From: an uncultured Spirochaetales bacterium
GTDB lineage: Bacteria; Spirochaetota; Spirochaetia; Sphaerochaetales; Sphaerochaetaceae
Reading direction: 5' to 3'
Assembly: GCA_949295505.1 (NCBI GenBank)
Contig: CASFLH010000084.1
Location: forward strand, 1 to 54,530
Length of the DNA: 54,530 nucleotides
In this document: in pieces, positions 33,172-44,658 of the stretch
Layout of the letters: each line of letters opens with the position of its first letter
Numbering within the stretch: position 1 is the first letter of the stretch
Program-made: the position numbers and the translations under genes
The notes under the pieces: generated by a model
The model's input: the letters and a program-made list of their open reading frames with translations, nothing else
Database searches by the model: none
What the model was told of the DNA's origin: nothing

Positions 33172-33200
33172 TTTACAACATGATTTTCTTATGATATATA
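33172..33200 (+). promoter_or_regulatory. Promoter of the chaperone-usher operon
   Basis: TTTACA (33172-33177) and TATATA (33195-33200) are 17 bases apart. The predicted start, about 33207, leaves a leader of about 250 bases before the chaperone ATG. Confidence 0.6.
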
Positions 33201-33457
33201 GCAAGCCATTAGGTAAAAGCCGAAGATAGGAAGGGGTGTCCTGTATTATGGCTAGAAGGTAAGCGCTGTTAAGTATAGCATGTTTTCCTTCTCTCCCAGT
33301 GGCTCTGTCCCGCGGGTGGTGGTTCGCTCATGAAATAGGGGTTCATGAGTGCGTAAAATCCGACGGGGGGGGGGGTGACTAATTATAGGAAAACAGCGTT
33401 TAGAGATACGATCATGTCTTTGAAGCGTTTCGGCGCTTCGTAAGGGAGAGACGTGCC
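33201..33457 (+). ncRNA. Long structured 5' leader of the chaperone-usher operon
   Basis: Non-coding but full of potential pairing: AGCCAT (33204-33209) / ATGGCT (33248-33253); a long-range helix GTTTTCCT (33282-33289) / AGGAAAAC (33387-33394) that can be flanked by CGCT/AGCG; a 10-bp hairpin around CTCATGAA (33327-33334) / TTCATGAG (33342-33349); and GAAGCG/CGCTTC (33422-33439) just before the AAGGGAGAG ribosome-binding site. An 11-G run lies inside the long-range helix. Several tiny frames occur (ATG 33248, 33280), none convincing. No known riboswitch motif was recognised. Confidence 0.5.
33365..33375 (+). repeat. Homopolymeric G tract (11 G) in the leader
   Basis: Eleven consecutive G between CGAC and TGACTAATTATAGG, 82 bases before the chaperone start and about 160 after the predicted transcription start. 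No other G run of this length is in the window. Such tracts change length by slipped-strand mispairing and commonly phase-switch surface-structure genes. Confidence 0.85.
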
Positions 33458-34195
33458 ATGTTCGCTAAACGTATTGTGACAGTCTCAGCACTGTTGCTCT
33501 TCTGTGCATTCTCTTTGATGGCTTATCAGCTGTCACCGCTGAATGTAACGTATGACCCGACAGGTGCAGGCAGCGCCAAGGTCTACACTATCGTCAATGA
33601 TTCAAGCTCACCTGTTGCAATTGAGCTGAAGGCGATGCGCCGTTATATCGATATCAATGGCGAAGAATACACCGAGGAAGCTCCTCAGTTTTTCTCCATA
33701 CAGCCTGCAAAGATGATTATCATGCCGGATTCCACGCAGCTTGTCCGTGTACAGTATCGCGGACCATCGACTGTGACAGAGGAAATGGCATTCAGGATCA
33801 TCTCTGAGCAGATTCCGATGCCGCGTGGTGCTCAGGATGAGAATAGCGGCCAGATGATATCATTCCTTTTCGTATATTCCACCAGTGCATATGTACGCCC
33901 TTCAAGAGTGGTTGAGAATGTTGTTGCTACAGCAGAGAAAACCGAGGATGGAAAAATCGAGATTATTCTTGAGAATACAGGATCTGTTCATCAGATGCTT
34001 AATAGTCTTTCCATCGTACTCACGGGAAATAATGGAACAACATATACGTTGACGGAATCTGAGACCGAATCGTTATCGGGAAAGAACCTTCTTGTAGATT
34101 CAAAACTCAGGACAGTCATCGAAATCCCAGAAGTTCTGACAGGCTCTGATGTTTTCACCGCGTCAGTTTCCTACGACTACGAGTATTCAGCCTAA
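33458..34195 (+). CDS. PapD-like periplasmic fimbrial chaperone
   Basis: 245 residues with a signal peptide (MFAKRIVTVSALLLFCAFSLMA). The mature part has the two-immunoglobulin-domain layout of pilus chaperones: an N-domain rich in short strands with AKVYTIVNDSSSPVAIEL, then FFSIQPAKMIIMPDSTQLVRVQY and MAFRIISEQIPMP, the latter matching the strand-F/G region that donates a strand to subunits, then a C-domain (IEIILENTGSVHQML). It would fold and escort the subunits encoded downstream to the usher. Similarity is structural in pattern and divergent in residues, so the assignment comes from pattern plus context. Ribosome-binding site AAGGGAGAG. Confidence 0.75.
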   Translation: MFAKRIVTVSALLLFCAFSLMAYQLSPLNVTYDPTGAGSAKVYTIVNDSSSPVAIELKAMRRYIDINGEEYTEEAPQFFSIQPAKMIIMPDSTQLVRVQYRGPSTVTEEMAFRIISEQIPMPRGAQDENSGQMISFLFVYSTSAYVRPSRVVENVVATAEKTEDGKIEIILENTGSVHQMLNSLSIVLTGNNGTTYTLTESETESLSGKNLLVDSKLRTVIEIPEVLTGSDVFTASVSYDYEYSA

Positions 34196-34222: not shown

Positions 34223-37200
34223 ATGGCAATGAATGATAGACGGGGTGGTTCCCGGCGCATCTTCATCATCATCTTATCTGCCCTGACAGCTGTTACGACA
34301 GCTTGTCTGGCCCTGCTTCGGAACAGCATAGGGCAGAGTCTTTCTGTGCTTCTTGGTTATGTCATTCTCTTTATGTCATCCGTTCTGATGAATCTCTGCA
34401 TCGCAGGCAGTACGGATGAGACAAAGAGAACGGCTCTTCTTGTCTTCTCGCTTGGAATCCTCGTCTTCTTCCTTGGCGGGATGATTCACATTCTCTTCTC
34501 AGATGATGAGACGGAGTACACTGCAACACCTTCGATAGCTGAAGCGCACATCACCGAACACCCAGCTGAAGTTATCGGCACAGCAGATGACGAAACAGGC
34601 ATTCAGGTTGCTGATGAGAAAGATGAGGCTTATATCACCCCCATTATCACTGAGCCCCATGAAACGTCTGGCAGCACTGAAGAGACAGAAGAGCCGCTCT
34701 CGCATTCCTTAGATGAAGACTATCACAATGATGAAGGGCCTCTCCAGAGTACTGACCCCTTCGTTGCAGCAGATAGTGAGGAAAAAGCATCTACTCCTGC
34801 TGCTCCTGAGATGTATTTCACCATCACGGATATTACCGAAGATGAACCTGTGGCAGAGGAGATCATCTTTGAACCACCTCCTGTACCAGAAGAAACAACA
34901 GTAGCGGAAATGGAGAAAGAAAGTGCATCTCCACAGCTTGCGGCTGCTGAGACAGTGGAGGCAATCGAGGCCGAGACGGAATCGGAAATTGCAGAGGCTG
35001 AGATTGTCACCGGTATAAGCGATGAAAATGAAGGATTCGCGAAAACGGAAACAGCTGTTGAAAAGACATCGGAAGAATCATCTGCAGATAGTTTCGATTA
35101 TGATTCCTATTATGCCGACTTCTTTTCGGATTTTTATATCCAGGGGCGCGATGACATGCTCCTTGAAGATGGCATCTATTACATGGATCTCTCAATCAAT
35201 GGAAACAATGTCGGTTCGATTGAGACAGAGGTTGTCGATGGTGAAGCTGCTATAAGCAAAGCGGAATTCGATTCCTACATCTATGGTTCTGTTGAAGATG
35301 TGCTTGTTGACAATATCATGGATTACGAAGGCCGTTATCTTCCTCTCGATTATATTGCGTCTTTTGGTGTTGGAGCATCTTTTGATCCGAACACATTTGC
35401 CATAGATATTGTTTTCAGCGCTTCTGATATGCCTCTTCAGATTCTGAGCATCGGTGGCGGAAGCTCAAGGAGAAATTCCTTCAGGCCAATATCCGATGGT
35501 ATTTCTCTCGATCCTGCTGTATTTGTCCTTAGAACAAGATGGGATTTTTCTGGTAGTATCGGATCTTTCATCGATAGTCCTTATGATACTCTGAGATTCA
35601 CTCTTTCTTCTGATAACACAGGCAGAATCAATGATGTATATTTTGATTTCAATTATTCTCTTGATTTCGCACCTGATGATTTCAATTTCAGAATGGGATC
35701 ATATCGGTTCTATAAGGATTTTGAAGATTCGATGATACGCCTCTCCTGGGGTAATGTATCTTCGGATGTTCTAAGCCCTTCTGGCCGTACCTTTGGCGTT
35801 AGATTTGATAGAAGCTATGCTTATGGTGGCCCGAATGCCCAGCGCAGAAGCCATCTTGAAAGGATGCTCCTTATTGATAAGACGTCAGAAGTCATTGTCT
35901 ATAACGAAGGAAGGGAGATCTACAGACGCACTCTTGATCCTGGCAATTACAGGCTTCGTGACTTCACGCTCTATACCGGAGCAAATACCATAACCATCAG
36001 GGTTGTTCCTCTTGATGGTTCTGCTTCGTCTGAACAGACAATCGACATCATGTACTCAAGCTCTCTTCTTGCGCCGGGTGAAGTGTATTACGGAGCAGCC
36101 CTTGTATCCGGGAGAAATGTTTCAAGAACGAAGAGCAGCAGGCCTGGAGTGCTTTCAATTCCGCTTGGGAGAGAGTATCTGGAATATGATTGGCGCAATG
36201 TCGTGCTCTCAGGATACATCGAGGCAGGCCTGACTGATTCACTTACGATTCATTCAACACTTGCCCTGCAGAATTATCCTGAAGGCCGGCGAAGCTGGAA
36301 TCCTAGAGTCAGGCTTAATACGGAGCTCACCCATGCCAATATTCTTGGAACAACCAGATACAACTTCAATATTGGTGAGTACATGGGCAATGATGGCTTT
36401 ATGGAACTTCCTCGCTTGTATGCGCGTGTCAGCCATCAGGTATCGACTGGGTGGACCCCGATTTCATCGCTGAATCTCAGCTTCGCATATTCTAATCCTG
36501 AGGAAAACAGACTCGCTGGTCGCCATAGGTTCTCATTCTCCGGTGGTCTTTCGGGTCGTCTTGGATTTATGAATTGGAGTACAAGTGCCTCTGCATCTCT
36601 CAATTCAGATGCCTTGGATGCATTCTCATGGAGTACTGCAGGCACGCTTAGTTTCTCCCTGTCGAGATATTTCTGGATATCGGCATCTGCATCTCTCAGT
36701 GGTACAGGATTTGAGTCTCCAAGAGCTTTCGGCCGTGTCTATGCGACTGTGCGGTTCGGCAAGGGTTCTGTTTCTGCCTCATCTAATTTCAGCAGTATTG
36801 CAGTTTCTGCTAATGCTTATACCGACAACCATTCATTCTCTGCTGGAATCGAGGCCTCAGATCCATTGAATTTCAATTCATATAGAGGGTCTGCTGATTA
36901 TTCGTACACAGGCAAGTGGGTGGGCGTTTCAATTGGTGCGAACGCTGATAATGGATTCCGCGATGGAAGCGCAGATTTCTCGCTTTCAACCAGCACTGTT
37001 TTCGCTGACGGGATGTTCGCTGCAGGTGAATATATACCCCAGAATTTCCTTCTTGTAAGACAGTATGGCGCTCTGAGAGGCAATGAGCTTTCCGCGGGAT
37101 CCGCGGGAGACTCCAGAACAGAGATTCTGAATCAGATCTTTGGCACTGCGGTTTATACGGGGCTTTCAACAGGTAGAGGAACAGCTTTCAGCCTTTACAG

Positions 37201-37699
37201 CACATCTGATGATTCTTTCAGCGGGCCTTCGATATTCAACATAAATGTTCCGCCAAGCAGTGAGTATGGATACATTCTCCGTCTTAGTGCAGAGGATTTG
37301 TATTCTGTGTCTGGAATCGTCGAACTCCCCGATGGAAGTGTGTGGAGGAATGGAGCTTCTCCTCTCTATGCATATTCGGAAGAAGCTGGTGAAATCAAGC
37401 TTGAACAGACAGACAATTACGTATTTACAGATGGGACAGGGCGATTTACTGTTTCAGACCTGGCGGCTGGCATGTATGCATTTGATGTCAGCTATGGTGA
37501 TACCTGGCTTCTTGCTATATTCGAAGCTTCTTCCGTTGACGAGGGTAAATCAGGAATGCAGATAGTCTCTCCTGCAGCCGAAGAAGATAGTGTGGAGCTT
37601 CCTGATCCTTATAGCGGAGTGATTATCTTCACCCTTGATGATGTTTTATTCAGCAATGAGTTCTGGGCAATGCTTTATCCAGAGGAGGGTGCGGCATGA
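34223..37699 (+). CDS. Usher-like outer-membrane protein with an N-terminal inner-membrane domain
   Basis: 1158 residues in one unbroken frame. Residues 13-32, 40-61 and 71-92 are three membrane helices, with RRGGSRR before the first, so the chain should leave the inner membrane into the periplasm. Residues ~93-287 are an acidic, proline/threonine/glutamate-rich linker. From ~300 the protein looks like an usher: an N-terminal domain (GIYYMDLSINGNNVGSIETE), a long run of beta-strands, a plug-like insert near 545-600 (VIVYNEGREIYRRTLDPGNY), and a C-terminal domain near 1030-1096 (VSGIVELPDGSVWR ... GRFTVSDLAAGMYAFDV). Typical ushers are ~800 residues with a plain signal peptide. Start ATG 34223 follows AGGAAG; ATG 34229 is possible. 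It ends in ATGA overlap with the first subunit gene. Confidence 0.75.
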   Translation: MAMNDRRGGSRRIFIIILSALTAVTTACLALLRNSIGQSLSVLLGYVILFMSSVLMNLCIAGSTDETKRTALLVFSLGILVFFLGGMIHILFSDDETEYTATPSIAEAHITEHPAEVIGTADDETGIQVADEKDEAYITPIITEPHETSGSTEETEEPLSHSLDEDYHNDEGPLQSTDPFVAADSEEKASTPAAPEMYFTITDITEDEPVAEEIIFEPPPVPEETTVAEMEKESASPQLAAAETVEAIEAETESEIAEAEIVTGISDENEGFAKTETAVEKTSEESSADSFDYDSYYADFFSDFYIQGRDDMLLEDGIYYMDLSINGNNVGSIETEVVDGEAAISKAEFDSYIYGSVEDVLVDNIMDYEGRYLPLDYIASFGVGASFDPNTFAIDIVFSASDMPLQILSIGGGSSRRNSFRPISDGISLDPAVFVLRTRWDFSGSIGSFIDSPYDTLRFTLSSDNTGRINDVYFDFNYSLDFAPDDFNFRMGSYRFYKDFEDSMIRLSWGNVSSDVLSPSGRTFGVRFDRSYAYGGPNAQRRSHLERMLLIDKTSEVIVYNEGREIYRRTLDPGNYRLRDFTLYTGANTITIRVVPLDGSASSEQTIDIMYSSSLLAPGEVYYGAALVSGRNVSRTKSSRPGVLSIPLGREYLEYDWRNVVLSGYIEAGLTDSLTIHSTLALQNYPEGRRSWNPRVRLNTELTHANILGTTRYNFNIGEYMGNDGFMELPRLYARVSHQVSTGWTPISSLNLSFAYSNPEENRLAGRHRFSFSGGLSGRLGFMNWSTSASASLNSDALDAFSWSTAGTLSFSLSRYFWISASASLSGTGFESPRAFGRVYATVRFGKGSVSASSNFSSIAVSANAYTDNHSFSAGIEASDPLNFNSYRGSADYSYTGKWVGVSIGANADNGFRDGSADFSLSTSTVFADGMFAAGEYIPQNFLLVRQYGALRGNELSAGSAGDSRTEILNQIFGTAVYTGLSTGRGTAFSLYSTSDDSFSGPSIFNINVPPSSEYGYILRLSAEDLYSVSGIVELPDGSVWRNGASPLYAYSEEAGEIKLEQTDNYVFTDGTGRFTVSDLAAGMYAFDVSYGDTWLLAIFEASSVDEGKSGMQIVSPAAEEDSVELPDPYSGVIIFTLDDVLFSNEFWAMLYPEEGAA

Positions 37700-38412
37700 A
37701 ACGTTTTATGCTGATTGTTTCAATATTTCTTATTGCAGCCTCCGTGCTTGTTGCCAAGGCAGGTGATACAGATATTGCTGACTTCACCATCAAAGCATTC
37801 AAAGCAGGGCAGGGAATCAAATTGCTTATCAATAATAGAGTCGATCTGAATGACATATTGGAAATCGCGGATGGCTCGACAACAGACAAGAAAGGAACTG
37901 ATATAAAGCTCAATAGCGTCATCGACCAGGTTCTAGGCTCTTCTGCCGGTCTTCAGCAGACTGGCCTCTCAAGCTTCATAATCTTCTCTTATAGGCTGGA
38001 AGGGGGGCTGAGCGGAAGGTATACCATCTCATTTGATGTGAGCCCTCTGAAAAGGGATGGCAGTGACCATGTTATCAGGAGCGTATATCAGATAGGTAAT
38101 TTCAATACTGTGTTTGTCGGATCTGCGGCAGATACAGGACAGACGAACACGCGTGATGGCTGGCGTATTGAGCAAACAGATACGGCTGTTAAGACTGAGG
38201 AGCCTGATTCCTCCGGTAATCCTGAGTTCTCAGAGACCATTACGATTTCTGATGCGAATGGATCCGTGCCATCAGAGCCACAGGCAACACCGAACTGGGC
38301 CGCGAGAGGGGCTGTAGGAATCGTTGTGAGTTACAGCGATTATATCGATAACGAAATAGCGCCATATGGTATGTATTACGCACCTGTGACAGTAAGGGTC
38401 ACGGCAGACTGA
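37696..38412 (+). CDS. Exported putative fibre subunit 1 (238 residues)
   Basis: Signal peptide MKRFMLIVSIFLIAASVLVAKA, then a beta-rich mature protein with no recognised domain. The end, APYGMYYAPVTVRVTAD, has the tyrosine/valine alternation seen at the end of every protein in this operon and typical of the last strand of pilins. It overlaps the usher by 4 bases, so it is probably the partner made first, a candidate adaptor or base subunit. A stretch around residues 148-190 is rich in T, D, E and S and may be flexible. No Y-x-Y-W motif is present. Confidence 0.68.
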   Translation: MKRFMLIVSIFLIAASVLVAKAGDTDIADFTIKAFKAGQGIKLLINNRVDLNDILEIADGSTTDKKGTDIKLNSVIDQVLGSSAGLQQTGLSSFIIFSYRLEGGLSGRYTISFDVSPLKRDGSDHVIRSVYQIGNFNTVFVGSAADTGQTNTRDGWRIEQTDTAVKTEEPDSSGNPEFSETITISDANGSVPSEPQATPNWAARGAVGIVVSYSDYIDNEIAPYGMYYAPVTVRVTAD

Positions 38413-38425
38413 AGGGAGGATGAGC

Positions 38426-39037
38426 ATGAGAAAGGCTATAATGATTGCAGTAATATCAGTTCTTCTTTCAGCTGTGCTCTGTGCTGAACCCGCTCCCGAT
38501 GTTTCGAGAACGATATATCTTCAGGGCGCTTATGATAATGTGCTTTCAATAGGTGTCACTCCCATTGCCTCTCAAACGGGCTTATACAGATATGGCATGC
38601 CCTTTGATATACAGGATGCAAGTGTTCAATACGCAATGTACAGAGGGCGTCCTATCGCAAACTGGACATGTCTTGCGAACACCCCGTTCAGAATTAAAGT
38701 CGAAGCTGAAAAACTTGCTTCTGTCATTGATACGGGATTCACATTGGATTACATCCTCACATTCTCCTATAACATCGCCTACAACGTAAAAGGCGAGACC
38801 AAGGAGGAACAGGGAGCTTTTGAATATAGTACTCTCCAGGCAGCGTCTGGCGGGGATAGTTATGGCTATTATGAGTTCTCCGTACTTGATAACGCTGACA
38901 AGCTTTCATTCATGGGAAGCGTCGACGGCTCGATATTCTTCAGGTTTGAGGACGGACTGATATCAAGGATTGACAACGATGCACCAGCAGGGAATTACAC
39001 GGCTGATGTGACACTGATTCTGGAGGCGCTGGAATGA
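38426..39037 (+). CDS. Exported putative fibre subunit 2 (203 residues)
   Basis: Start ATG 38426, set by GGGAGG six bases upstream; ATG 38420 lies too close to that site. Signal peptide MRKAIMIAVISVLLSAVLCA. The mature protein contains VLSIGVTPIASQ and, mid-protein, PIANWTCLANTPFRIKVEAEKL, which resembles the Y-x-Y-W ... F-x-I-x-L block of the later subunits with the aromatic core changed to A-N-W. It ends APAGNYTADVTLILEALE, the pilin-like last strand. It overlaps the next gene by 4 bases. Confidence 0.7.
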   Translation: MRKAIMIAVISVLLSAVLCAEPAPDVSRTIYLQGAYDNVLSIGVTPIASQTGLYRYGMPFDIQDASVQYAMYRGRPIANWTCLANTPFRIKVEAEKLASVIDTGFTLDYILTFSYNIAYNVKGETKEEQGAFEYSTLQAASGGDSYGYYEFSVLDNADKLSFMGSVDGSIFFRFEDGLISRIDNDAPAGNYTADVTLILEALE

Positions 39038-40425
39038 GAAAAGCTGCATTTTTGATCCTGCTGATTCTGAGTTTCCATTCACCAGTTTTCGCGCTTGAAG
39101 ATCTTTACCTGGGACCATATGGTGGTTCTATTAATGTAAATCTCAATAATACGAATGCTAAATGGAACAAAGGCGCATGGGGAGGGCAGGATCAAAAAGG
39201 CGCGCCATTTGAAGATGGCCAAATAGTTGCAGTGGGTGCGTTGTATAGACTTGAGTATAGAGCGTTTAGAGGACACGAAGCCCGTGACTATGGTCTTAGA
39301 GTGACTTTTTTCAGTAACAGTAATGAAAATGGATATTTCTGGTTCACTTCACAAAGCAATCCGGATTCGCGCCGTCCATTTTATCTGAATGTCGCGGGAC
39401 AGGTTAGAAAACATATTTTGGGGGACAACCATAATAATGAATTTGAAAATTGGGGATTGTATCCTAAGGAAAGTACTGCTAGCATCGCTGACAGCATCGA
39501 AATATATGCCGATGTAGGTGGGTGGGCTCTAGACATAAGCATAATACCGGATATCGCTATTGTCCTGCCAGGAGAAATTGTCAATGGTGTCCTTACTATT
39601 CCATCTGATCAGTCAGTTTCCGGAAGGGAAGAGAAGTATTCGATAGTCTCCGCTTCTGATTATAGCTGCGATATTACTGTACGTTATGAAATAATAGACA
39701 AGTCTGGAAATGTTGTCACACACATAGATGGTTATAATGGACCATATTCCCAGGAAATCACCATTCCATTCTCAGGTTTCTATGATCCTCTTATTGCTCC
39801 AACAGAGGAAGATAATAGCATCCCTCCGGAATTAAGCAGCGCTTTATCGGTGCACACATACCCGGCCGCTGCAAACATTGACCTTAGGAATGACCAAGGA
39901 ACAAGCATGCATATCGCGGACATAAGCTATGCTGTTTACAATGTCAAGGAAAGGACTGATTCGAATTATTATGATGATTCAATCTACATTTTCCTTTCTG
40001 CAAGCCCCAATCCTTATTCCCAGGATATCAACGGCTTCCGCTTCGTTCATGAGGATGTAGCTCCTGGTGTTAATCCAAGCGCGAGACAGTCGCTTGGTTA
40101 TACAGTTACCGTCAATGGTGATCAGGATACAGTAGCTCATGGCGGGACGGATGAAGCGTCATTCAACGGGGATGAATATCTGTCAGTTGAGGGGAGTGTC
40201 GGCAAGGTTGCTCCGGACAATGACGCGAAGATTATAACAGGATGTTACACGGAAGATGTGTCGCATACTGCCGCAGAAAACATTCATCGTCATTGGCATT
40301 CTTTCAACGGGGAAATCTGGCTGAATCTTGATGTGAACAGGGAGGCTCCAGTTATGGAGGCGGGCTATTACCATAGCAATGTCTATGTGCATGCGATTGT
40401 GGATGAGGCAGCAGCAGTGCTATGA
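39034..40425 (+). CDS. Large exported protein of the fibre operon, candidate tip adhesin (463 residues)
   Basis: Signal peptide MRKAAFLILLILSFHSPVFA. At more than twice the length of its neighbours it fits the usual plan in which one long two-domain adhesin caps a fibre. It has no recognised domain. Segments include VNLNNTNAKWNKGAWGG near the start, IVLPGEIVNGVLTIPSDQ mid-protein, and a C-terminal HRHWHSFNGEIWLNLDV followed by MEAGYYHSNVYVHAIVDE, again a pilin-like end. The adhesin role is inferred from size and place. About 110 non-coding bases separate it from the following subunits. Confidence 0.65.
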   Translation: MRKAAFLILLILSFHSPVFALEDLYLGPYGGSINVNLNNTNAKWNKGAWGGQDQKGAPFEDGQIVAVGALYRLEYRAFRGHEARDYGLRVTFFSNSNENGYFWFTSQSNPDSRRPFYLNVAGQVRKHILGDNHNNEFENWGLYPKESTASIADSIEIYADVGGWALDISIIPDIAIVLPGEIVNGVLTIPSDQSVSGREEKYSIVSASDYSCDITVRYEIIDKSGNVVTHIDGYNGPYSQEITIPFSGFYDPLIAPTEEDNSIPPELSSALSVHTYPAAANIDLRNDQGTSMHIADISYAVYNVKERTDSNYYDDSIYIFLSASPNPYSQDINGFRFVHEDVAPGVNPSARQSLGYTVTVNGDQDTVAHGGTDEASFNGDEYLSVEGSVGKVAPDNDAKIITGCYTEDVSHTAAENIHRHWHSFNGEIWLNLDVNREAPVMEAGYYHSNVYVHAIVDEAAAVL

Positions 40426-40534
40426 GGTGGTCTATGGGATGGTATGAAATGAATAAATGCTGCGTATGCAGTTTATATAGGGTCTGGGGGAGAAGAAATT
40501 CTTTCGTAGAAAATAAACACACATGGAGGAGTGT

Positions 40535-41134
40535 ATGAAGAAGGCACTTTGTGTATTGGCGGTATTCCTGATGACAGGAATGGTTTTTGCGGCGTGGACC
40601 GGTGGAAGTGATGGAATCGGAAATGGGGGATCTCAAGCTGTTAAGGCCACACTTAACCTCAAAACAGGAGGAGAGAACATCACGAAGTCTATTGTAGTTG
40701 GCTTCGCATCAGCTCCGGTTACGACTTTTGATGATGTGACAGGTGATATAACAACCGACCAGGGACTGACTATTAACGATGATGATGAAACAGCTTCCCT
40801 TGAAGATGTTTATGTCTATTGGCAGATCAAGTCTCCGGATGCTCTTCAGATAAGTCTGAAGTGGGATGAAAAACTTACGGGTACAGGAGGCAAGGAACTT
40901 GCATGGACAGTTTCCACAACACCGGGGTCTGGCTCCGATAACGGTACGGCATCGACAGGGTCCGGAAGCCTAATACTTGATAGAAGCACAGCAAAAATTG
41001 AGGCCGACGAATTTAACTATGCGACGGTTGGAAGCCAGAAGGTGAATATCTCTGTTAAAGATGTCTATAGCAATGGCATTGTAGATTACAGTGGCACTCT
41101 GACACTTACGATTTCTGGTGAGCAGCAGGGTTGA
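40535..41134 (+). CDS. Exported fibre subunit paralogue 3 (Y-x-Y-W family)
   Basis: 199 residues from ATG 40535, preceded by GGAGGAG; an earlier in-frame ATG at 40523 overlaps that site. Signal peptide MKKALCVLAVFLMTGMVFA. It shows the family blocks: SIVVGFASAPV (about residue 50), VYVYWQIKSPDALQISLKW (Y-x-Y-W near 92-95), and the end VDYSGTLTLTISGEQQG. The glycine- and asparagine-rich N-terminus (WTGGSDGIGNGGSQ) matches that of the next paralogue, so these two are the closest pair. First of seven consecutive related genes, likely polymerising subunits. Confidence 0.72.
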   Translation: MKKALCVLAVFLMTGMVFAAWTGGSDGIGNGGSQAVKATLNLKTGGENITKSIVVGFASAPVTTFDDVTGDITTDQGLTINDDDETASLEDVYVYWQIKSPDALQISLKWDEKLTGTGGKELAWTVSTTPGSGSDNGTASTGSGSLILDRSTAKIEADEFNYATVGSQKVNISVKDVYSNGIVDYSGTLTLTISGEQQG

Positions 41135-41160
41135 TCACAAATAAGTTAAAAGGAATGAAT

Positions 41161-41796
41161 ATGAAAAGATTGACAGTTTTAATTCTTGTAGCAGTTGTTG
41201 CTCTGTCCGGTGTATTCGCAGCTGCATACAATTCGGGAACTGGAAATGATAGCTCAAGCTGGGGTAATGGTGGACATCCGACAGTGCCTTTGAAGTTTAC
41301 TATTGGCACTAACACAGCTTCATACAAAATCGGATTTGATTCGAACCCTGGTGTTCCTGCGACTCCAAGTTTTTCTGGAGATGTTGTGCTCGATTTCAAA
41401 GATGGCGATCCTACGACAATCGTGAATGTCAGCGATATTTATGTGTATTGGGATATCACAACAGCTCAGAATTTCGCCCTCTCTCTTGAAGCAGATGGTG
41501 CTCTTACCACAGGAGACGGAGGAGAAGAGAAGCTTATCAACTTCAAGGTTACTGGTGATAAGTCAAAGCAGGGAGATGTAGCGAATTCAGAATCTACAGA
41601 AGTTTCGATTAAAACCTCGACAGATACAACAGCAGCTAGTGCTTCTCCTATTGTTTCAGAGTCATCTGCAACTGCTCTGAAGTCATTCAAGGGCTATCAG
41701 AAGCTTACTATTGAGTCGCTTCCTGGCGAGCTCGATGGTAAGGCGACAGGAGAATATACGGCAAATCTGACTCTTAAGGTAACGGACGGGAATTAA
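41161..41796 (+). CDS. Exported fibre subunit paralogue 4 (Y-x-Y-W family)
   Basis: 211 residues from ATG 41161, six bases after AAAAGGA; the in-frame ATG 41155 is too close. Signal peptide MKRLTVLILVAVVALSGVFA, then SGTGNDSSSWGNGGHPTVPL, close to the same region of paralogue 3. Family blocks: YKIGFDSNPGVPATP, IYVYWDITTAQNFALSLEAD (Y-x-Y-W at 94-97) and GEYTANLTLKVTDGN at the end. Serine/threonine-rich mid-section (TSTDTTAASASPIV). Probably a fibre subunit exported through the usher. Confidence 0.72.
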   Translation: MKRLTVLILVAVVALSGVFAAAYNSGTGNDSSSWGNGGHPTVPLKFTIGTNTASYKIGFDSNPGVPATPSFSGDVVLDFKDGDPTTIVNVSDIYVYWDITTAQNFALSLEADGALTTGDGGEEKLINFKVTGDKSKQGDVANSESTEVSIKTSTDTTAASASPIVSESSATALKSFKGYQKLTIESLPGELDGKATGEYTANLTLKVTDGN

Positions 41797-41799
41797 TAA

Positions 41800-42300
41800 A
41801 TGAGAAGAGGGATGACAGCCATTCTGATTGTGGTTTTCATAGCAGTCTCTGGACTGTCATTCCTCTATGCGTCAACAATCCAAGAAAACCCCGTCAAAGT
41901 TTCCTTTGGTTTCGCTGAAGGGAAGGGGTCATATGAGATTGGATTTTCGGATTCGGCGGATAACCCTTCCGCGAATCAGATAGAAGCGATACCGCTAGGC
42001 CTCGATTCGGATGGATTCGGAGTGCCTTTGAATGATGTATATGTTTACTGGGCTATTACATCAACAATACCATTCAGACTTAGTCTTTCCGAGGCTGAGA
42101 GCGGTACGCTTCCTTTGACTGTTTCCTGGGATGATAAGGAAAGCAATGACATCATTTTTGAGTCCCGAGCAGGGGTGTACAGCAATACGGATGCTGTCAA
42201 GCTTTCTATCAAGACGGTTAACAATATCAGCGAATTGAGCATCAAGGATTATAGTACGACCTTGGTTCTGAGCATCATGCCAGCCGGGGATGGCGATTAG
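41800..42300 (+). CDS. Exported fibre subunit paralogue 5 (Y-x-Y-W family)
   Basis: 166 residues, shortest of the set. Start ATG 41800, three bases after the previous stop. Hydrophobic export signal in MTAILIVVFIAVSGLSFLYA after a basic MRRG. Blocks: SYEIGFSDSADNP, VYVYWAITSTIPFRLSLSEA (Y-x-Y-W at 81-84), and the end DYSTTLVLSIMPAGDGD. Lacks the long N-terminal glycine-rich stretch of paralogues 3 and 4. Confidence 0.7.
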   Translation: MRRGMTAILIVVFIAVSGLSFLYASTIQENPVKVSFGFAEGKGSYEIGFSDSADNPSANQIEAIPLGLDSDGFGVPLNDVYVYWAITSTIPFRLSLSEAESGTLPLTVSWDDKESNDIIFESRAGVYSNTDAVKLSIKTVNNISELSIKDYSTTLVLSIMPAGDGD

Positions 42301-42309
42301 GAGGGGAAT

Positions 42310-42876
42310 GTGAGGAAAATTTTGAGTATCTTCATTGTCGCTCTCTTCTGTATTGGCTTCCTTTTCTCAGCTGAGCATGTGGTTTATGATTCTGATGAGC
42401 CAGGAGAGAATGCGTATAAGAATATTGCAATGAATCCTGCTAACCGCAGTTATTTTGAGATAGGATTCTCTTCTGGAGCTTATGATTTCAAAGGAGTTCC
42501 GTCTGTGTCATTTGATGAGAATGGCCTGATGCCTCTCGTTTATGATGAAGCAACGTATATAGCAGAAGGAGATATCAATATTTACTGGCTGTATGGAACA
42601 ACCTCATCATTTGATATCGTACTATCATGTACAGCACTTGTTTCTCAGAGCGACAACAGTGTGACAATTCCTCTTTATGCTGATTATGGTGACCTTACTG
42701 CAGAGAGCGGGAGTGATCCGATTGATATTCTCAATATAAAGAGCTCTGGGGAGTATCAGATCAGCAATTCCCTAGAAAGCGATACAGCAATCCATCTTCG
42801 TTCGGGAATATTGCTGGATAAACCAGCAGGTGAGTATAGAGGATCGGTTATATTGGAGGTCAGATCAGCCACATGA
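42310..42876 (+). CDS. Exported fibre subunit paralogue 6 (Y-x-Y-W family)
   Basis: 188 residues from GTG 42310, preceded by a strong AGGAGGGG at about 42300. Signal peptide MRKILSIFIVALFCIGFLFS. Blocks: YFEIGFSSGAYDF, INIYWLYGTTSSFDIVLSC (N-I-Y-W at 90-93, first tyrosine lost), and PAGEYRGSVILEVRSAT at the end. It overlaps the next gene by 4 bases. Confidence 0.7.
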   Translation: MRKILSIFIVALFCIGFLFSAEHVVYDSDEPGENAYKNIAMNPANRSYFEIGFSSGAYDFKGVPSVSFDENGLMPLVYDEATYIAEGDINIYWLYGTTSSFDIVLSCTALVSQSDNSVTIPLYADYGDLTAESGSDPIDILNIKSSGEYQISNSLESDTAIHLRSGILLDKPAGEYRGSVILEVRSAT

Positions 42877-43424
42877 GAAGAGGAATCATATTTATTGTCT
42901 TATCTATAATGATGGTCTTCTCTATTTATGGGGAAAGTCTGGACACTGCCGATATTGAGGTTGTATGGCCCCCTGAGAATTCTACATTCATAAGATTCGG
43001 GTTTTCTTCATCTCCTGTCTCAAGTATGGGAGAGGATCCTTCTTCTGGCGGTCAGTCTGATTCATATATTGCATTCAACACCACTTCCAGATCTGGAACG
43101 GATATTGTCTCAAGTTATACAGGAAGCCTTTATGCTTATTGGCAGATGTATAGCAATGACGTGTTCTATATTTATATCGGAGCCAAGAGCCTGACGAAAG
43201 AAGGAGCCGCTTCAATACCTTTTACGGTGAGCTGGGAGGGCGGTAACAGCATAACAAGCACTGATACTGCAGAAAATAGCGCGGAAATCCTCCATATGTA
43301 TGATACGAGTATCACAGCGGACGCGGATTCCGAGGAACTTACTATTCAGACGACGATGCCGGAAGGCGCTGTGGGTGATTGGTATGAAGGCTATATTTAT
43401 CTTGAATTGAGGAGAGCGGAATGA
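42873..43424 (+). CDS. Exported fibre subunit paralogue 7 (Y-x-Y-W family)
   Basis: 183 residues, starting in ATGA overlap. Signal peptide MRRGIIFIVLSIMMVFSIYG. Blocks: FIRFGFSSSPVSSMG, LYAYWQMYSNDVFYIYIG (Y-x-Y-W at 87-90) and the end WYEGYIYLELRRAE. Overlaps the next gene by 4 bases, so paralogues 6, 7 and 8 are translationally coupled. Confidence 0.7.
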   Translation: MRRGIIFIVLSIMMVFSIYGESLDTADIEVVWPPENSTFIRFGFSSSPVSSMGEDPSSGGQSDSYIAFNTTSRSGTDIVSSYTGSLYAYWQMYSNDVFYIYIGAKSLTKEGAASIPFTVSWEGGNSITSTDTAENSAEILHMYDTSITADADSEELTIQTTMPEGAVGDWYEGYIYLELRRAE

Positions 43425-44008
43425 AACGGACAATATTGGCTATTCTGATTATTGTTTTATCTCTTCAATTCGCCGCAGCGGTTTCTGGCGAACCTGACAG
43501 GTTCAGGGTTGTTCAGTTTACGCCTGACGCGTTTGCACGTGCTGGATTTTCTAATAATCCTGTTGTAAGTACTGTTGAACCTGACGGAAATGCTTCCACG
43601 CCTATTTCGCTCGCGTTGAGTGGGAATATCATCACTTCAGAAAAGGCAGCGTATGCATATTGCCAGATTTTCACAAAGCTTCCTGTCCAGATACGGGTTT
43701 CGGGCACAGCTCTGGAACTCAGGAATTCCAGCAATGTTGTGACCAATTCATATAGCTGGAAAGCTGAGTTCAAAGGTTATGATGGATTGATAAAGAACGA
43801 ATCAGTAACTTTATCGTCTGGATCGGAGGCAACAATCCTCAATGAGACCCAATATTCAGCTGATATAGATTTCGGATATCCCAGACATTATTGCTGGTCG
43901 GTCATGGTTACTTTGGATAATGATTCTAATGGAGAAGCCAAGAAACAGCCTGCAGGAAATACGACCCCGATAACTGGAAAGATAACTCTAGAGATCATAA
44001 CGGAGTAG
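43421..44008 (+). CDS. Exported fibre subunit paralogue 8 (Y-x-Y-C variant)
   Basis: 195 residues. Signal peptide MKRTILAILIIVLSLQFAAA. Blocks: FARAGFSNNPVVSTV, AYAYCQIFTKLPVQIRVSG and TPITGKITLEIITE at the end. The tryptophan of the signature is a cysteine here (Y-A-Y-C, 78-81), and a second cysteine occurs later in HYCWSVMV, so this member could form a disulphide that its relatives cannot. Confidence 0.7.
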   Translation: MKRTILAILIIVLSLQFAAAVSGEPDRFRVVQFTPDAFARAGFSNNPVVSTVEPDGNASTPISLALSGNIITSEKAAYAYCQIFTKLPVQIRVSGTALELRNSSNVVTNSYSWKAEFKGYDGLIKNESVTLSSGSEATILNETQYSADIDFGYPRHYCWSVMVTLDNDSNGEAKKQPAGNTTPITGKITLEIITE

Positions 44009-44019
44009 GAGGCGGAAAT

Positions 44020-44658
44020 ATGATGAGAAAGATTACTCTGATTGCATTGTTCATTTTTTCTGCTGTATTCCTTTTCTCGGCAGGTGATGTTAATATCGGC
44101 GGTAATTTCAATGTTGTTCTTCAGAAGACAGGCACTGATAGTTATGGTTTTTGCACATATGAGACAGCTTCCAGCAATACTCATGATTCATTGAGTTCGA
44201 TTGACTTTGAACTTATTGCTTCAAGGGATCAGACAAGAACGACAACGAAATTTGGAGTGTATTGGGATTTGTACACGGAAAACCAAGCTGAGAATATTGA
44301 GCTGATTCTTGCTTTCTCGGCTACCAATGACAATCTTAGCCCTTATATGCTTATCGCAGATGACGGCAATGTCCACTCATATCTGAATTATGATGTGGCA
44401 GTTGATGAGTATGAGGGCGACTCGGAAAAGCCGTCTTCATTAACTGTGGTGCCGGCTGAGAGAGATTCCTCGATGAGCACTTCAAGGGAAATCAGACTGC
44501 TTGATCTTGAGAATCTGGCTCCGTACTCAGGAACAAATGGTTATGCAGCAATTACGCTTACTCTGAATTCACCTGTCGATTCCGAGACCCTTGCTAATGA
44601 GCCATTCCATGAGGGGAAATACACAGGCTATGTACTGCTGTACTGTATTTCCGGGTAA
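44020..44658 (+). CDS. Exported fibre subunit paralogue 9, last of the operon
   Basis: 212 residues from ATG 44020 or 44023, preceded by AGGAGGCGG. Signal peptide MMRKITLIALFIFSAVFLFS. The signature is FGVYWDLYTENQAENIELIL (V-Y-W at 80-82); the G-F-S-x-x-P block is missing, and the N-terminus (GDVNIGGNFNVVLQKT) differs, so this is the most divergent member. It ends HEGKYTGYVLLYCISG. In chaperone-usher operons the last gene is often a terminator or anchor subunit. No clear terminator follows in the 100 bases before the convergent gene. Confidence 0.66.
   Translation: MMRKITLIALFIFSAVFLFSAGDVNIGGNFNVVLQKTGTDSYGFCTYETASSNTHDSLSSIDFELIASRDQTRTTTKFGVYWDLYTENQAENIELILAFSATNDNLSPYMLIADDGNVHSYLNYDVAVDEYEGDSEKPSSLTVVPAERDSSMSTSREIRLLDLENLAPYSGTNGYAAITLTLNSPVDSETLANEPFHEGKYTGYVLLYCISG

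Follow-up and report, generated by a model that had tools for sequence, protein, structure and literature searches.

The leader of a presumed fibre operon in an uncultured Spirochaetales bacterium contains a pure run of 11 G, and comparison across the genus gives good support to the view that this run is a hypermutable contingency tract ahead of surface genes. All positions refer to the window, which is the whole stretch of 54,530 nucleotides that was analysed. As for the way in which tract length might act, we favour a mechanism in which the tract lies in a structured leader RNA and its length tunes the capture of an anti-Shine-Dalgarno sequence, a reading that we regard as plausible while stopping short of calling it probable.

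A G-tract ahead of a chaperone/usher-like operon

The run of 11 G noted in the initial annotation was confirmed by direct reading, and it precedes a set of co-directional genes:

33365-33375, + strand: G11 homopolymer tract, read directly from the sequence
33458-34195, + strand: periplasmic chaperone of the PapD type, encoded at the head of the operon (PF00345, E=2.1e-6, above the cut-off)
34223-37699, + strand: divergent usher-like outer-membrane protein of 1158 residues (PF00577, 21 bits, cut-off 27.1)
37696-44658, + strand: short secreted proteins, presumed fibre subunits (co-directional, nearly touching open reading frames with signal-peptide-like N-termini)

Judged on the window alone, the tract is only mildly unusual. 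No other G or C run of at least 8 occurs in the window, and the pattern GGGGGGGG has four overlapping matches there, all within G11, where shuffled sequences gave a mean of 0.82 and a maximum of 4. The genome as a whole (a fragmented assembly of 113 contigs and 1.76 Mb, ~80% complete) holds 15 runs of at least 8; from this tract density we calculated a chance expectation of ~0.001 tracts per 250-nt sense-strand leader. The chaperone gene was present in 40 of 48 same-genus genomes, and loci were read from 39 of the same genus and from one outgroup. A pure tract of G8-G12 was found 50-160 nt before the start codon in 29 of the 39 same-genus loci (82 nt before the ATG in the window), and it is this conservation that places G11 beyond chance. 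Moreover, since the flanks have mostly diverged, blastn aligning only 11 of the 780 possible pairs among 300-nt leaders, the run itself is most likely under selection.

The length of the tract differs between species: five have eight Gs, eleven have nine, seven have ten, five have eleven and one has twelve. Two relatives (G032 and G019) that are 96.7% identical over 2683 bp carry G11 and G8, respectively. Genus-wide retention, the range of lengths, the difference between near-identical relatives and the presence of sister tracts in lipoprotein promoters (see below) together underlie the contingency-tract reading. The initial annotation had proposed a length-variable tract of this kind and suggested counting its length in related strains; the count is not constant over the 29 species, and the genus comparison strongly supports the proposal. 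There was no conserved reading frame across the tract in the same-genus loci compared, and frameshifting of an upstream open reading frame was therefore rejected, in agreement with the earlier statement that the tract lies outside any reading frame and would not act by frameshift.

In 22 species, referred to below as group A, the tract lies 50-90 nt before the start codon, and in seven low-GC species it is retained in the absence of the group-A leader. The leaders of the low-GC species L026, L030, L037, L038, L085, L086 and L087 contain the palindromic motif AACTTATGACATAA, or a close form of it, at variable positions before the operon, possibly a regulator site. A close pair of loci differs in having G8 (L027) or an interrupted run (L028): in L027 the eight Gs are followed by TACT, and L028 has AAAGGGTGGGTACT at the same place, where the tract is seemingly broken and locked. 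Two further loci (L024 and L035) lack a long tract and have a C/U-rich run, with GGGG near the place of the tract. These last two count in favour of the leader mechanism described below, and would also fit the idea that the run is kept merely as the G-rich strand of a leader structure, with no function that depends on its length. We consider this very improbable, because pure runs of 8-12 G are found in 29 species though 4-5 G would pair equally, because length differs between close relatives, and because long pure runs are unstable and would presumably not be kept without selection.

With regard to the genes themselves, PF00345 was also above the cut-off in the chaperones of two relatives, and no solved structure was related to the chaperone by sequence. 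The usher-like protein had, in addition to its sub-threshold PF00577 score, a weak match to NF011760; no usher family match was found in two relatives, and a search against solved structures returned one weak match that is evidently unrelated. Structure prediction for this protein was beta-rich and of low confidence, too poor to use (pLDDT 38-39 with a subunit model). No family match was obtained for six presumed subunits, and the one that was modelled was unusable (pLDDT 38). The label of fibre operon is thus reasonable and only partly proven, given the sub-threshold usher match and the lack of a family for the small subunits tested. Of note, the beta-rich part of the usher-like protein is preceded by three helices predicted at the N-terminus and by a long linker that is acidic and of low complexity, which is unusual for an usher.

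Candidate promoters around the tract and poly-G promoter spacers

Two candidate promoters lie upstream of the tract in the window:

33172-33200, + strand: predicted operon promoter TTTACA-N17-TATATA, its position conserved in most relatives, with a putative transcription start at ~33207
33330-33359, + strand: weak second promoter ATGAAA-N18-TAAAAT, which would start transcription inside the G-tract

The first of these is 164 nt upstream of the tract and scores 9/12, a value reached by 46 of 200 shuffles of the window's own leader and so not significant alone. Most relatives have a stronger site of the form TTGACA/TTTACA-N17-TAnnnn at a similar position, and in most of the 22 group-A species these sites lie ~95-170 nt upstream of the tract. 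The earlier placement of the run between a promoter and the first gene of a surface operon is confirmed as regards the tract and the chaperone gene; the promoter is a predicted one, and the fibre identity is part-proven.

The second site ends 5 nt before the tract, and at this place none of 200 shuffles reached its score. Across the genus the site was not conserved (mean score 6.3 against 5.9 in shuffled sequences). A promoter starting within the tract is conspicuous only in L037 and the window, and was rejected as a general explanation; a weak second promoter in the window's own species is possible.

Elsewhere in the genus, poly-G tracts are found within promoters. Sites of the form TTGACA-N7-12-G8 occurred in 34 of 48 species, while the reversed pattern gave zero. 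We collected 30 examples that were selected for a perfect -35 (TTGACA, 6/6). In these, the six bases after the tract start with TA in 29 of 30 and end with T in all 30, the total spacer measures 16-21, with most at 18-19, and the majority of the readable downstream genes start like those of lipoproteins. The class consensus is TTGACA-N7-10-G8-12-TANNNT, mostly ahead of lipoprotein-like genes, and such tracts are also present in other genera of the same taxonomic class. These promoters probably amount to an extensive repertoire of surface lipoproteins under phase variation. The window's own genome has such sites at L040 (C41), L042 (C46), L043 (C51), L045 (C107), C30:19866 and C67:6955, and those in relatives are L048-L077. 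Furthermore, two lipoprotein-like genes of the window's own genome have C10/G11 tracts within their first codons (L039, C14:1890-1899; L041, C46:38898-38908); in the assembly neither tract is in frame with the long reading frame downstream, as in phase variation of the frameshift type.

These promoters raise the question of whether the fibre tract is itself part of a phase-variable second promoter, either as its spacer or as the first transcribed bases, with length setting transcription as at the other tracts of the genus. This reading draws on the many spacer-type promoters in the genus, on the weak site just before the tract in the window and on a partial -10 after the fibre tract, where TA follows directly in 24 of 29 species and T stands at the sixth place in 15 of 29. 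The best -35 at a spacer of 15-21 from the fibre tract, however, scored a mean of 3.6/6 against 3.2 in shuffled sequences (in the spacer class, selection sets the -35 at 6/6, and the sixth-place T is found in 30/30), the would-be -10 downstream of the tract in the window is TGACTA, and the pre-tract site lacks conservation. With no -35 at the right distance, we rejected the fibre tract as a promoter spacer, and the broader second-promoter reading seems somewhat unlikely.

A different role at the DNA level would be that of a spacing element, in which tract length determines how far an activator site upstream stands from the promoter, most likely in the low-GC species. A TTGACA or TTTAC(A/T) hexamer does occur 28-45 nt after the tract in L026, L027, L030, L037 and L038, but AT-rich flanks make such matches cheap, and the best promoter is found upstream of the tract in the window, as it is in most of the other group-A species. 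We therefore hold this possibility to be quite improbable.

The leader RNA and its proposed competing pairings

The leader of the window contains the following elements:

33260-33270, + strand: 5' half of the conserved helix P1, TAAGCGCTGTT (from leader alignment and pair count)
33283-33297, + strand: C/U-rich stretch UUUUCCUUCUCUCCC, candidate anti-Shine-Dalgarno and G-tract partner (from co-variation and pairing balance)
33327-33349, + strand: hairpin CTCATGAA-loop-TTCATGAG, between the C/U-rich stretch and the tract (from sequence and fold)
33392-33402, + strand: 3' half of P1, AACAGCGTTTA (pairing in 85% of P1 cells, with both partners changed in 3 pairs)
33413-33455, + strand: hairpin P3 (CATGTC...GACGTG), immediately upstream of the start codon, whose internal loop contains the Shine-Dalgarno (from alignment and fold)
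33442-33448, + strand: Shine-Dalgarno AAGGGAG of the chaperone gene (from sequence, conserved in relatives)

The fibre-tract leaders of the 22 group-A species appear to be mostly structured and operon-specific. Helices were evaluated in an alignment of 13 leaders, in which P1 encloses the tract and the outer stem of P3 has 98.9% of its cells paired. P1 and P3 together gave 90.6% standard pairs, a level reached by 2 of 500 shuffles, with slid controls at 35-53%. Changes on both sides of a pair were seen for 3 pairs and 6 cells, numbers that 140 and 28 of 500 shuffles also reached, which makes this signal modest, the more so as kinship was ignored. A covariance model of the leader gave strong matches (E<=1e-18) once per genome, all ahead of the fibre operon, and refound the leader ahead of the operon in two non-training species (E=7e-7 and 6e-5); its remaining matches were weak. 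The window leader is more stable than its shuffles (z -2.66), and P1 is absent from its minimum-energy fold. RNAalifold on a raw alignment of 12 leaders returned a P1-like helix and a short second stem only, and a duplex scan of the left against the right flank was too permissive to inform. A known riboswitch or leader family was rejected, there being no Rfam 15 match at gathering score in the window; in 15 leader loci Rfam 15 gave nothing at E<=1 except tRNAs.

Five loci (L016, L019, L021, L079 and L083) have a different version of the leader, in which GATGAGAC pairs with GTTTCATC or GTCTCATC. The 3' half of this helix overlaps CATCATG, a sequence able to pair with CATGATG of the start-codon region; the two helices would therefore be mutually exclusive.

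A C/U-rich run lies upstream of the tract in each of the 22 group-A leaders, and the pairing energy of G9 with these leaders averaged -14.3 kcal/mol, compared with -10.3 kcal/mol in shuffled leaders. The C/U stretch is also complementary to the Shine-Dalgarno, and the two co-vary: in 11 of 13 species a Shine-Dalgarno of GGGAGA is matched by UCUCCC, or one of GGGAGG by CCUCCC (Fisher p=0.03 for the pairing classes, kinship ignored). When the Shine-Dalgarno was swapped among 18 species, only 32 of 5000 permutations paired equally well, again with kinship ignored. In the window's species the C/U stretch pairs with the Shine-Dalgarno at -14.3, and with the G-run at -11.7 for nine Gs, -14.7 for ten and -17.2 for eleven, meaning that the G-run would outcompete the Shine-Dalgarno pairing only from ten Gs upward and that the balance lies at about G10. 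The crossover length was 6-13 in 16 species, around the natural lengths, and for this reason a rheostat is suggested in which the tract competes for the anti-Shine-Dalgarno. In the whole-leader ensemble of the window, accessibility of the Shine-Dalgarno was ~77% whatever the tract length between 4 and 13, without any length effect, and a clear effect in the full partition-function fold was seen in L010, L017, L018, L078 and L083 only.

A trans-acting, C/U-rich small RNA could also read the G-repeat of the leader, as RepG reads tlpB in Helicobacter pylori, with the leader fold being secondary. The placement and lengths of the tract resemble tlpB, for which 6-16 G were tested (PMC8295292), and such an RNA would also serve the low-GC species that have no C/U stretch in cis. 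Since a C/U-rich run is already in cis in every group-A leader, we regard this as unlikely.

A candidate leader-RNA rheostat and related systems

In the mechanism that we favour, length acting through capture of the anti-Shine-Dalgarno, transcription from the upstream promoter would place the tract inside the leader, on the 3' side of the fold closed by P1 and opposite the C/U-rich stretch. Replication slippage, presumably also in living populations, would alter the number of Gs, which is 8-12 across species. The C/U-rich stretch would have two possible partners, the tract and the chaperone Shine-Dalgarno, and these would compete for it. With more Gs the stretch would be held tighter and the ribosome site freed (ON or higher expression), and with fewer Gs the stretch would mask the ribosome site (OFF or lower expression); the purpose would be to produce variable surface fibres. 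Its narrower form, a phase-variable translational rheostat that works in cis only, with G-tract and anti-Shine-Dalgarno in one mRNA leader and single-G slippage shifting the masking of the ribosome site, is put forward more tentatively. We have kept the mechanism at this level and retained its rivals because a length effect was seen in about five species and not in that of the window, and because P1 is missing from the window's minimum-energy fold. Nor can a leader model be the whole story, since the tract persists in seven low-GC species that lack this leader. The preference for TA after the tract is likewise not accounted for by RNA pairing. The initial annotation had named transcription, leader folding and a second promoter as possible routes; of these, leader folding agrees best with the evidence, a promoter-spacer role is disfavoured at the fibre locus, and a weak second promoter may exist in the window's species.

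Phase-variable fimbrial operons are known elsewhere: Escherichia coli fim and Bordetella fim3 vary by promoter inversion or promoter C-tracts. The operon described here shares with them a surface fibre and a proposed reversible genetic switch, but no invertible element was seen and the tract is outside the promoter. A literature search for chaperone-usher operons with homopolymer switches found no papers.

In H. pylori, the C/U-rich loop of RepG binds the G-run of tlpB, and run length results in graded control (PMC8295292). The fibre tract resembles tlpB-hp0102 in being a variable G-run, here in a predicted leader, before the ribosome site of a surface-related operon, with a candidate C/U-rich partner and the expectation of graded control. 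It differs in having this partner in cis, within one leader, where it resembles an anti-Shine-Dalgarno; the organism and operon are unrelated. We liken the fibre tract to the tlpB type without claiming membership, its transcript start being a predicted one. Also comparable are the poly-G promoters of Treponema pallidum tp0126, tprE/G/J and tprL, where varying length controls expression (PMC7864442): this too is a spirochaete, and its genes for surface proteins are preceded by poly-G runs of much the same length. The lipoprotein spacer tracts of the window's genome have the tp0126-type arrangement (PMC7864442), whereas the fibre tract has no -35/-10 frame and is apparently ~160 nt inside the transcript. 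Similarly, Neisseria meningitidis porA has poly-G between -35 and -10 (PMC7864442); the fibre tract shares with it a homopolymer of G and, as proposed here, control of a surface protein by length, but is not placed between these elements.

Poly-G phase variation is already known in T. pallidum, a spirochaete that is hard to culture and handle. Here, an uncultured spirochaete genus has a genus-wide battery of poly-G tracts, with that of the fibre operon lying in a conserved leader RNA. If the proposed mechanism is true, slippage would have been turned into graded translation of a surface organelle in cis only, and the natural series of 29 species with varied tract lengths would make it testable with simple reporters.
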